50,422 nt of DNA. Source: Candidatus Methylomirabilota bacterium. Its GTDB lineage: Bacteria; Methylomirabilota; Methylomirabilia; Methylomirabilales; 2-02-FULL-66-22. The translations under genes and the position numbers were made by a program. Shown piece after piece: positions 34,948-38,930 of the stretch. Under the pieces are notes generated by a model. The model saw nothing but the letters and a program-made list of their open reading frames with translations. It was not told where the DNA came from and ran no database searches. Numbering within the stretch: the first letter of the stretch is position 1; each line of letters opens with the position of its first letter. The stretch covers positions 1-50,422 of the forward strand of contig JAPLLC010000089.1 in NCBI GenBank assembly GCA_026387775.1, written 5' to 3'.

Positions 34948-35199
34948 TCATGCCAGGAGGGCTCCTCCGCATTCGAAGTGTCCAAACCGGCCCAACCCGG
35001 GAAAGAACGCCATGGCCTGGCTCGTCTTGACCTGGGCCCAGCAGCGCGGGCATCTGCGACCCACGCGGTTCCATGCCTCATAACAATCACCGCACACGCC
35101 AAACCCCCGCCCGTAGGGAGACCGCCAGGCCCGACCGGTCAGGAGTTTGAGCTTCCCGCACGCCTCACAACGGAACCATCCAACCTGGATCTCCAACAT
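34948..35199 (-). CDS. Small zinc-ribbon protein
   Basis: An 83-aa protein with three cysteine pairs: CEAC near residue 10, CGDC near 36, and CRPRC-like CPRC near 50. A final Cys lies near the end (ECGG). The pattern suggests one or two zinc knuckles. ATG 35199 fits a TAGGAGG ribosome site with ~6 nt spacing; an ATG six bases upstream is too close to that site. It sits between the GntR-like gene and the universal stress protein on the same strand. I do not recognise the family, and no function can be given. Confidence 0.6.
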   Translation of the reverse strand: MLEIQVGWFRCEACGKLKLLTGRAWRSPYGRGFGVCGDCYEAWNRVGRRCPRCWAQVKTSQAMAFFPGLGRFGHFECGGALLA

Positions 35200-35276
35200 G
35201 GTCATCCTCCTAACCCGACCGAGAAACCGGAGAACACGCACGCCCAGCCAGCCGTTTGCCGGAACGCCACGCTCTC

Positions 35277-36176
35277 TTACGGGCGCACAACCAGTACCGA
35301 GCAGGAGGCATACTTCAGGACCATCTGCGCTACGCTCCCCAGCGCGAACGACTTGGCGCCTGTCCGCCCCTTCGCGCCGATGACCGCGAGGTCCGGCCGG
35401 AATTCACGAATCGCCGCGAGCAGATGATCCACCGGATGGCCCGCGCGCATGGATGTCGTGATCTCGCACCCCACCGCGGCCAGCAGTCTGCGGCCTTCAG
35501 CCAGGACCCGGTCGGCCGAGGCCCGTCCAACCTCGGCGATGGTCCGCAGCGCGGCCGCCAGCTCTTGGGGGGTCGCGACCTTTCCGGGGCCGAAGGTGGG
35601 CGCCTCCGCCACGGCGCAGAGGCGCACCGAGGCGTCCGAGGGGAGGGGCAGGTCGGACACAAACCGCGTCGCTGCCTCCGCATGCACGGACCCATCCATG
35701 CCGATCAGCACGCGTCGCACAGGCCCCACGGGCCCGCGAGCGATGAGGACAGAGCACGGAGCAGAACGGATGACCTGCTGCGAGACATTGCCGAGCAGAA
35801 ACTCCTTGACCGGCCCCAGCCCGCGCGAGCCCACGACGACGAGGTCCGCCCGCAGCCTCTCGGCCATCTCGATGATGGCGGTCTCTGCCGGACCGTGCAT
35901 CAGGCGCGTCGTAATGCTGGCCGAGTGGCCGTCCAGGATCTGGCCCGTCGTGTCCAGGGCGTGGAGCGCCTCCTCCTCAGCCTCGCGCCGCATCGTGGCC
36001 AGCGCCTGCGAGTACGCACGGCGCGCCATGGGCGTGACAGAAGTGAAGGAAGGTTCCGGCACATCCACCGCCGCCAAGACCGTCACCTCCGCGGGCGAAG
36101 CGAGTGGAAGGGCCACCAGCGTCTCCGCGGCCCACCGCGCGCCCTCCGATCCGTCAGTTCCCAAGATGATCCGCAT
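35277..36176 (-). CDS. Tandem universal stress protein (two UspA domains)
   Basis: A 299-aa cytosolic protein with two UspA folds: residues ~1-147 (MRIILGTDGSEGARWA ... DLVVVGSRGLG, GNVSQQVIRSAPCSVLI) and ~155-299 (RVLIGMDGSVHAEAA ... DLAVIGAKGRTG, GSVAQMVLKYASCSVLVV). Both carry the ATP-binding G-x2-G-x9-G-(S/T/V)-like pattern, so an ATP-binding Usp dimer in one chain is expected. Such proteins respond to starvation, redox and energy stress. It lies downstream of terC on the same strand with ~110 bp between, possibly sharing its transcript. Confidence 0.9.
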   Translation of the reverse strand: MRIILGTDGSEGARWAAETLVALPLASPAEVTVLAAVDVPEPSFTSVTPMARRAYSQALATMRREAEEEALHALDTTGQILDGHSASITTRLMHGPAETAIIEMAERLRADLVVVGSRGLGPVKEFLLGNVSQQVIRSAPCSVLIARGPVGPVRRVLIGMDGSVHAEAATRFVSDLPLPSDASVRLCAVAEAPTFGPGKVATPQELAAALRTIAEVGRASADRVLAEGRRLLAAVGCEITTSMRAGHPVDHLLAAIREFRPDLAVIGAKGRTGAKSFALGSVAQMVLKYASCSVLVVRP

Positions 36177-37317: not shown

Positions 37318-37409
37318 GCGCCACCTCCATGGCAAGGGTTTGAACTGCCACTACTGCGGGAGACCGCAGGCACCCAACAGAAATAGCCGGATGCGCGCGG
37401 CGCTCCAAG

Positions 37410-37456
37410 AAACACAAAGGCCGGCACCAGGATTCCAAGCATTCCTGATGCCGGCC
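37410..37456 (-). terminator. Terminator (expression platform) of the terC leader
   Basis: Minus-strand stem of 14 bp (37443-37456 with 37419-37432, one G-U), 10-nt loop, then TTTGTGTTT. It lies ~90 nt before the TerC start codon, inside the untranslated leader, so it must be bypassed for expression. Confidence 0.8.
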
Positions 37457-37526
37457 TACGTTACCGCTGGTCGCCCAGGCGGATTTGCTTCCCCGCTCGG
37501 ACTACCCTCTGTCTCGTCAGCCGGTT
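37410..37526 (-). ncRNA. Structured leader RNA with terminator upstream of terC (orphan riboswitch candidate, copy 1)
   Basis: From 37526 down to 37457 the transcript carries a ~70-nt block almost identical to the leader at 38119-38260. It has a small stem UCC-GAGC-GGG, the conserved GGGAAGCAAAUCCGC, a CCGC...GCGG hairpin with loop GGGCGACCA-like, then GUAGGCC. The last bases run into the terminator arm (37443-37456 against 37419-37432, U-rich tail 37410-37418). An aptamer followed by an overlapping intrinsic terminator is riboswitch architecture. It does not fit yybP-ykoY or c-di-GMP-I consensus as I know them. Ion-sensing classes (Na+-I/DUF1646, NiCo, Li+) are the first to test, given the target genes. 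Confidence 0.65.
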
Positions 37527-37551
37527 CACATTTCGTGATTACGTGGTTACA

Positions 37552-37968
37552 TCACTGCCATCGCATCTCCGGACACTCGCGCAGGATGAACACGATGAGC
37601 CGTTCGCCCGTCTGCGAGCAGAGGTCATTGTACATGCTGATGACTTCGCAGCCCGTGGCCGCCTTGAGCATCCGGTTGAGCGGTTCACGTTCGGTGTCGA
37701 GGAGCTTCGTCCGGACCTGCTTCAGCAGCTCCATGCCGCCCGCCCGGACCAGCGCGCGCTCCGCGGGGGTCAGCATGTCGGCCATCCGGATGATCACCAT
37801 GTCCTGGACGATCTGCGTCCGGATGTCCGCCGGTCCCCGGCCCAGTTGCTCCCGCTCGAATCGAACCATCGCCTTGCTGATCTCCGCCTCGACCTGTCCC
37901 TTCGTGCGGACGCGCCCCCCGGCCTTCTCTCGCTCGGCGGGCACCTCCACGGTGTCCAGCGCGGGCAT
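37552..37968 (-). CDS. DUF2294 / MpsC-family protein (paralogue A)
   Basis: A 138-aa soluble protein. Family features: TKGQVEAEISKAMVRFEREQ, LGRGPADIRTQIVQDMVIIR, LTPAERALVRAGG, and GCEVISMYNDLCSQTGERLIVF. The family (PF10057) includes MpsC of the staphylococcal MpsABC membrane-potential/inorganic-carbon system; other members have no settled role. ATG 37968 follows GGGGAGGAGG; the open frame extends into the leader but is not expected to be translated. Its transcript begins with leader copy 2. It is ~77% similar by eye to paralogue B (38347-38757) and lies directly upstream of the terC leader. Confidence 0.85.
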   Translation of the reverse strand: MPALDTVEVPAEREKAGGRVRTKGQVEAEISKAMVRFEREQLGRGPADIRTQIVQDMVIIRMADMLTPAERALVRAGGMELLKQVRTKLLDTEREPLNRMLKAATGCEVISMYNDLCSQTGERLIVFILRECPEMRWQ

Positions 37969-38118
37969 CTTCCTAACCTCCTCCCCTCGGATAACGTCGT
38001 GGAGCATCTGCCGATCGTCCCTCCCTTCTCGCGTCGCCTCCCCATTTCGATCCTTCTGCCCGGGCGGCTGACCACCCGATCGCAATCATTGCCCGCCAGA
38101 TCTCAGTCGGCAATCCAC

Positions 38119-38171
38119 CCCAAAAAACACAAAGGCCGGCAACAGGATTCCATCCATCCCTGATGCCGGCC
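38119..38171 (-). terminator. Terminator (expression platform) of the DUF2294 A leader
   Basis: Minus-strand 14-bp stem (38158-38171 with 38134-38147), 10-nt loop, then TTTGTGTTTTTT. It precedes the DUF2294 start by ~150 nt and mirrors the terC leader terminator, including its GGCCGGC core. Confidence 0.8.
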
Positions 38172-38260
38172 TACGCTACCGCTGGTCGCCCGAGCGGATT
38201 TGCTTCCCCGCGCGGGCTACCCTCTGTCCCGTCAACCGGTTTGCGATCCCGCGATTATCC
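38119..38260 (-). ncRNA. Structured leader RNA with terminator upstream of DUF2294 A (orphan riboswitch candidate, copy 2)
   Basis: Nearly the same ~87-nt block as copy 1: I count eight differences, mostly in stem or loop positions that tolerate them. For example, UCC-GAGC-GGG becomes CCC-GCGC-GGG, keeping the pairing. It starts just downstream of a promoter (38267-38295) and ends in a terminator (arms 38158-38171 and 38134-38147, U-rich tail 38119-38133). The same aptamer-like block controlling an unrelated gene is strong evidence for a shared ligand-sensing RNA rather than gene duplication. Confidence 0.65.
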
Positions 38261-38346: not shown

Positions 38347-38757
38347 CTATCGCATCTCCGGACACTCGCGCAGGACGAACACAATGAGTCGCTCGCCCGT
38401 CTGCGGGCAGAGGTCGCTGTACATGCTGGCGACTTGGCAGCCTGTGGCCTCCCGCAACAGACGGCTGAGCGCCTCCCGTTCGTGGTCGATCAGCTTCGTC
38501 CGCACCTGCTTCAGCAGGTCCTCGCCGCCCGCCCGAACCAGAGCGTGTTCCTCGATGGTCAGCATGCCGGCCATCCGGACGATAACCAGGTCCTGGACAA
38601 TCTGCGTCCGGATGTCCGCCGGCCCCCGACCCAGTTGCTCCCGCTCGAACCGGATTAAGGCCTTGCTGATCTCCGCCTCGACCTGCCCCTTCGTGCGGGC
38701 ACGCCCGCTGTCGTTTCTCCGCCCGCCCGGCGTCTCCACACTGGCCAACACAGGCAT
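38347..38757 (-). CDS. DUF2294 / MpsC-family protein (paralogue B)
   Basis: A 136-aa paralogue of the neighbouring DUF2294 protein, sharing KGQVEAEISKALIRFEREQ, LGRGPADIRTQIVQDLVIVR and GERLIVFVLRECPEM. ATG 38757 follows GGGGAGGTAAGG. Its leader is a different RNA, a recognisable yybP-ykoY Mn2+ riboswitch with a terminator. Two paralogues under two different RNA sensors suggests they serve different ion or stress conditions. Role inferred from MpsC membership: ion-linked membrane energetics or carbon uptake. No MpsA/MpsB-type membrane partners are in this window. Confidence 0.85.
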   Translation of the reverse strand: MPVLASVETPGGRRNDSGRARTKGQVEAEISKALIRFEREQLGRGPADIRTQIVQDLVIVRMAGMLTIEEHALVRAGGEDLLKQVRTKLIDHEREALSRLLREATGCQVASMYSDLCPQTGERLIVFVLRECPEMR

Positions 38758-38786
38758 CGCCCTTACCTCCCCTCGGATCGTGTCCT

Positions 38787-38830
38787 AAAAAAGAAAGACC
38801 CCTCGCGGCATTCTGGCCGCGAGAGGTCTT
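38787..38830 (-). terminator. Terminator (expression platform) of the Mn2+ riboswitch
   Basis: Minus-strand 15-bp stem (38816-38830 with 38795-38809, one mismatch), 6-nt loop, then TTTCTTTTTT. Its 5' arm contains the CCUCUC that closes P1 of the aptamer, so aptamer and terminator are mutually exclusive: bound ligand should permit read-through. Confidence 0.85.
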
Positions 38831-38930
38831 GATCCTGGGGCTTTCAGGAGCCCTTGATGGGCCGGACCGCCCGTCTAAGGGCGATCGTGCTGACGGCACC
38901 ACCTAAGAAGTGATCTACTCCCCTCTCTGC
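38821..38930 (-). ncRNA. yybP-ykoY family Mn2+ riboswitch upstream of DUF2294 B
   Basis: On the minus strand the RNA begins GAGAGGGGAGUAG, containing the family loop GGGGAGUAG (38915-38923). The second conserved loop, CGUCAGCACG, follows at 38886-38895, and the RNA ends AUCAAGACCUCUC. The 5' GAGAGG and 3' CCUCUC form P1. These two loops dock to bind Mn2+ in characterised members. The family normally controls Mn2+ exporters (MntP, TerC/Alx, P-type ATPases); here the gene is DUF2294, which is unusual. Overlap of P1 with the terminator arm predicts an ON switch at high Mn2+. Confidence 0.85.

Follow-up and report, generated by a model that had tools for sequence, protein, structure and literature searches.

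The two similar leader RNAs in the window, that is, the whole stretch of 50,422 nt analyzed here, belong to a widespread, previously undescribed RNA family. The most far-reaching reading, to which we assign a probability of about 40%, is that this family is an undescribed class of RNAs that would respond to bicarbonate or CO2, either directly or together with an MpsC (DUF2294) protein as partner, and that would switch on genes for transport and for carboxylation or decarboxylation across many bacterial phyla. The locus in the window has the following features, in the order of transcription:

38915-38783, minus strand: separate leader with its own terminator, upstream of MpsC-A
38347..38757, minus strand: MpsC-A (DUF2294, PF10057; Pfam 1.9e-33), copy 1 of a tandem duplication
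38165..38241, minus strand: element 2, an aptamer-like RNA domain with P1, P2, P3, and P4, located 3' of MpsC-A and 5' of MpsC-B (R3 60.3 bits, E 6.5e-12, the sequence being included in the model; also fold and covariation of homologs)
38120..38172, minus strand: intrinsic terminator of element 2, the 5' arm of which is the 3' strand of P1
37552..37968, minus strand: MpsC-B (DUF2294, PF10057; Pfam 5.5e-34), copy 2, downstream of element 2, with its ATG at 37968
37450..37526, minus strand: element 1, an aptamer-like RNA domain, located 3' of MpsC-B and 5' of TerC (R3 58.5 bits, E 1.7e-11, the sequence being included in the model; also fold)
37405..37457, minus strand: intrinsic terminator of element 1, the 5' arm of which is the 3' strand of P1
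36289..37335, minus strand: TerC-family membrane protein (PF03741, 5.4e-50), downstream of element 1
35277..36176, minus strand: universal stress protein with two Usp domains (PF00582, 1.7e-48), next after TerC and possibly on the same transcript

The near-identical blocks in front of two genes, which an earlier note on this DNA had described, were confirmed on the minus strand; they are 77 nt long and differ at 7 positions. The terminator stem and U-rich tail ahead of the start codon were also found as described, in the form of a G+C-rich hairpin of about 15 bp at each block, and blocks plus terminators share 90% identity over 122 nt. TerC and DUF2294 are indeed encoded downstream, but the term "two unrelated genes" is only half of the picture, because each element also lies 3' of an MpsC gene, and the second of these MpsC genes had been missed. 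BLAST comparison of one half of the locus with the other revealed 82% DNA identity for the ribosome binding site plus MpsC gene and 90% for the element plus terminator, and the two MpsC proteins share 76% of their amino acids. Because the similarity blocks keep the same order, the locus was made by a tandem duplication of MpsC plus element. The supposed orphan pair is therefore a tandem duplication and, in addition, a member of a widespread family. No other copies exist in the host genome, and a blastn search of 148 genomes yielded none beyond chance outside of it. The divergence of the element (7/77) is lower than that of the synonymous sites of the sister gene (pS 0.30, Ks 0.38; binomial p = 1.2e-5), and thus selection keeps the element. 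A duplication, which the earlier note had named, if recent, as a point that would weaken its riboswitch reading, did take place, but the element is not a mere duplicate. Three of the seven differences fall into consensus pairs, and a standard pair is kept in all three cases.

A covariance model built from the two blocks alone (R1) was applied to 100 loci around MpsC and TerC genes and retrieved homologs from Rokubacteria, Deltaproteobacteria, KSB1, and Planctomycetes. The later models R2 and R3, which were trained on many of the matches that they re-find, added Ignavibacteria, Nitrospirae, Verrucomicrobia, Chloroflexi, Saganbacteria, Clostridium, and the family of Scalindua. The covarying homologs on which the earlier note had made its reading depend thus occur in many phyla. 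Under strict filters, R1 found only the copies of the window throughout the host's class, so that the family links came via the MpsC and TerC loci. A scan of contigs with one MpsC protein as query yielded nothing, while an MpsC alignment as query was successful. A phylum-wide search of the Planctomycetes was limited to 18 scored candidates per genome, and its low yield is therefore not evidence of absence. At the window, R1 also gave antisense matches, which were a palindrome effect and were gone with R2 and R3. Searches of viruses and plasmids were negative.

The structure is well supported by covariation. A MAFFT alignment of 17 sequences, including the two blocks, was made from sequence only and contains a 19-bp structure with 90.6% of the cells paired and with double-sided changes in 15 of the 19 pairs. 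The covariation score was 0.57, compared to 0.26 for shuffled and 0.08-0.15 for slid controls, and none of 500 shuffles was as good (0/500). An alignment of 39 sequences agrees with this structure, and so do alignments A6 and A7 with one another, of which only A7 had been fitted to the model. Each 77-nt block on its own folds into the same long interrupted hairpin (fold z about -3.8 to -4). The R3 consensus is gGccGGCaGACuaGcCAgAGGGCAgCCCc..GGGcGGCCaGcUGgAgcGUAGGCCggC, and its layout comprises P1, a two-pair helix (A-U/G-C, C-G/U-A) flanked by a conserved G and A, P2, a 2x2 AG/AG loop, P3, and a variable P4. Across the family the element is about 60-77 nt long, and the core conserved between phyla reads GGC.GAY..G.CAGAGGGYA / GGCCAGCUG.A..RUARGCC. 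The sequence GGGAAGCAAAUCCGC, formerly proposed as a conserved motif, is a hairpin extension that, among the sequences seen, occurs in the host genome alone.

A scan of both blocks against Rfam 15 (4227 families) at gathering cut-offs matched no family, so that the strong hit to a described class that would have removed the novelty was not found. Further scans at these cut-offs had one tRNA as their sole match, and permissive scans returned only unrelated families below threshold. The covariance models of yybP-ykoY, Na+-I, Li+, NiCo, M-box, and fluoride were not matched by the element. The earlier impression that the motif does not fit yybP-ykoY, M-box, or fluoride was therefore upheld, whereas the suggestion that it could be a known ion class such as Na+-I (DUF1646), NiCo, or Li+ was not, even at permissive thresholds. 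The Mn2+-dependent yybP-ykoY riboswitch is known to reside upstream of TerC-family genes. The TerC target is common to both; however, the new element is a single irregular hairpin without Rfam match and its set of targets is not Mn2+-like. Similarly, ion-linked targets are shared with the Na+-I (DUF1646), Li+ (nhaA), and NiCo riboswitches, but gathering and permissive scans alike gave no match to them. Integron attC sites, which form cassettes of a gene and a palindrome, were considered and rejected by eye, since the element ends with GUARGCC instead of GTTRRRY and is followed by terminators.

Very probably, the element is a transcription attenuator in which P1 and the terminator share one strand. 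The 3' strand of P1 forms the 5' arm of an intrinsic terminator ending in a U tract in 54 of the 64 elements examined, and the terminator region lies outside of the covariance models R1-R3. When the following sequence is included in the folding, the terminator is preferred and takes up GGCCGG, the 3' strand of P1; P1 and the terminator are mutually exclusive because both use it. The next gene is on the strand of the element wherever Pfam identified that gene. The riboswitch-like architecture claimed for the two blocks is supported by the covariation, the P1-excluding terminators, the same-strand targets, and the lack of an Rfam class. Known ON riboswitches that act via transcription termination resemble the element in the position in leaders, the aptamer-like domain, the strand shared by P1 and terminator, and the occurrence of tandem copies. 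Unlike them, the element has no Rfam family, and its core is, as far as the Rfam scans tell, not common to any named class. As in riboswitches, a covarying aptamer-like structure is part of a leader whose gene is on the same strand and, judged from sequence and folding, the expression platform excludes an aptamer helix. The elements might instead be ordinary intrinsic terminators or hairpins of the MpsC 3' UTR that were copied locally and have no regulatory role, and their usual position just 3' of MpsC as well as the local duplication in the window would fit this. We regard it as very improbable, because a plain terminator does not need an upstream domain of 60 nt that is conserved and contains internal loops besides covarying helices. 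Many elements are also found away from MpsC and ahead of other genes, and tandem elements exist, most of them with a terminator of their own (L105/L220, L113, L037, L036, and L218).

From the layout of the attenuator, the polarity would be ON. By default, the terminator stem would take the GGCCGG strand of P1, and RNA polymerase would stop before the next gene. Stabilization of the aptamer domain would let P1 keep this strand and block the terminator, and MpsC-B and TerC, or elsewhere SulP, PurE, oxaloacetate decarboxylase (OAD), PEPCK, and other genes, would be transcribed. A switch between these two states is predicted. The downstream genes, which were identified from open reading frames with Pfam and NCBIfam, are listed by locus:

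MpsC paralog as next gene: L036, L069, L091, L102, L105, L129, L136, L147
PEPCK as next gene: L087, L092, L205
PurE as next gene: L183, L207
SulP as next gene: L210, L211, L213, and L218, the latter with a beta-carbonic anhydrase after SulP
OAD gamma/beta (Na+-pump decarboxylase), then PYC_OADA: L217
Carbonic anhydrase, then MpsC, monomeric isocitrate dehydrogenase, and an ATP-citrate-lyase-like gene: L221 (the element alone is weak at 24 bits; the terminator layout is present)
Pyruvate synthase PorC as next gene: L112
ATP-citrate lyase as next gene: L073
HAD-Sua5 as next gene: L139
Nitrate/taurine-type ABC permease: L105, L113
MFS transporters as next genes: L126, L202, L203
Na/Ca exchanger: L069
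TerC: the window, and L105, there after the MpsC paralog
Usp as next gene: L055
DUF3360: L142
DUF4914: L135

The largest coherent group of targets, spread over several phyla, handles CO2 or bicarbonate. In a genome of the Scalindua family (G515, locus L217), one element lies ahead of SulP, CODH/ACS beta, and a biotin ligase, and the contig carries another one ahead of an OAD gamma-beta-carboxyltransferase operon. Because MpsC was the route to most loci, the list is biased and may reflect MpsC neighborhoods. The signal may be the status of dissolved inorganic carbon (DIC), i.e., HCO3-/CO2 or a reporter of it; as a single reading this suits the targets best, and it has about even chances of being correct. 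The earlier idea of an inorganic ion as ligand could thus be right, but not with a metal ion, because the downstream genes favor DIC over Na+, Li+, Ni2+/Co2+, and Mn2+. Several targets have no obvious link to DIC, namely TerC, Usp, the Na/Ca exchanger, CNNM, HtpX, the OFA-type MFS, DUF2934, and desulfoferrodoxin. A different signal is rather unlikely, be it Na+, pH, or cation stress or be it a carboxylate (oxaloacetate or oxalate, for example). The neighbors TerC, Na_Ca_ex, CNNM, P-type ATPase, and the OAD Na+ pump are in agreement with the former, and PEPCK, OAD, ATP-citrate lyase, and the OFA-type MFS with the latter. However, PurE, carbonic anhydrase, PorC, and Sua5 fit neither, and CO2/HCO3- is their common substrate or product.

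Further points count against DIC as the signal. It would be odd for high bicarbonate to turn on a bicarbonate importer, unless SulP acts as an exporter or a metabolite further downstream is the signal, and a nearly strict dependence on MpsC is not expected if the switch senses a universal ion. Sulfate and C4-dicarboxylates are further substrates of SulP proteins, and for the Brocadiales SulP the general sulP and DauA models outscore BicA. With the sensor left open, an ON-type, DIC-linked attenuator could about equally well be right or wrong, and this formulation overlaps with the MpsC-based alternative discussed below. A new widespread candidate class of riboswitch-like RNAs is uncommon, and a link to CO2 or bicarbonate would be unusual; no paper on a bicarbonate riboswitch was found in the open PMC literature. 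If this link is real, the family would possibly be the first RNA switch known for inorganic carbon. It would also point to a regulatory setting or role of MpsC/DUF2294 and offer a handle on the sensing of inorganic carbon in anammox and other carbon-fixing bacteria.

The element is closely linked to MpsC. It usually starts less than 160 nt past the MpsC stop codon (median 56 nt), and genome-wide scans of MpsC-bearing genomes gave few matches, mostly on the MpsC contigs. Of the 95 genomes of the host's class, 8 have MpsC, and the element occurs in 7/8 of these versus 2/87 of the others (Fisher p 2.6e-8), the two being G094 with a weak element and G080, which is 77% complete. BglG binds RAT and PyrR binds its own attenuators in protein-dependent attenuation, and in bglG and pyrR operons the order of regulator, attenuator, and target resembles that of MpsC1, element, and gene X. 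As in these systems, the MpsC gene is linked to the target attenuators, and the hairpin overlaps the 5' arm of the terminator; unlike BglG and PyrR, MpsC has no recognizable RNA-binding fold, and its RNA binding is putative. It is possible, if on balance doubtful, that MpsC itself is the sensor, which would bind the element, stabilize P1, and control by antitermination the genes after it as well as others in the genome. The Staphylococcus aureus mpsC gene adjoins the bicarbonate transporter genes mpsAB, its deletion did not affect growth, and it was dispensable for MpsAB bicarbonate transport, so MpsC may have a role outside of transport (PMC6689103).

Gene order and co-occurrence favor MpsC as the sensor, whereas other observations favor direct sensing by the RNA. 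Two genomes, G080 with two strong elements and G219, contain the element without a PF10057 match, although the incompleteness of G080 has to be kept in mind. The MpsC domains carry little net charge (mean -1.3), the AlphaFold model of MpsC had no significant match in the PDB (uL23 was among the top matches, not significantly), and a sequence search of the PDB found no relative. In addition, a leader of quite another kind occupies this position in the Rhodothermota. Not all elements directly follow an MpsC gene. Exceptions are several SulP and OAD cases and the one with carbonic anhydrase; the elements before the SulP and OAD operons of the Scalindua family lie apart from MpsC. Direct binding of a ligand by the candidate RNA might hold or fail with similar probability.

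Other leaders were observed at MpsC genes. The leader upstream of MpsC-A in the window (38783-38915, minus strand) has a different structure with a fold z of -6.0 and a 15-bp terminator plus U tract; it had neither an Rfam match at gathering cut-off nor an R3 match. Geobacteraceae (L099/L110) and Deltaproteobacteria (L125/L128) have terminator-linked leaders 3' of MpsC without an R3 match. MpsC loci of the Rhodothermota/Bacteroidetes type (L071, L080, L083, L084, L086, L098, L111, and L137) possess a different, larger conserved leader about 100-230 nt past MpsC, with GGCGAG...CACAAGC...GAGCGGGUGCAACGAUUGYARGCCGAC and the same kind of terminator; this leader may be an expanded variant or else constitute a second class. 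A small cysteine-rich, zinc-ribbon-like protein of the MWPFGK..C..CG family, which has no Pfam match, is encoded in the window (34948-35241, minus strand) and at L069, L033, and L160, and at L160 its gene lies directly behind an element.
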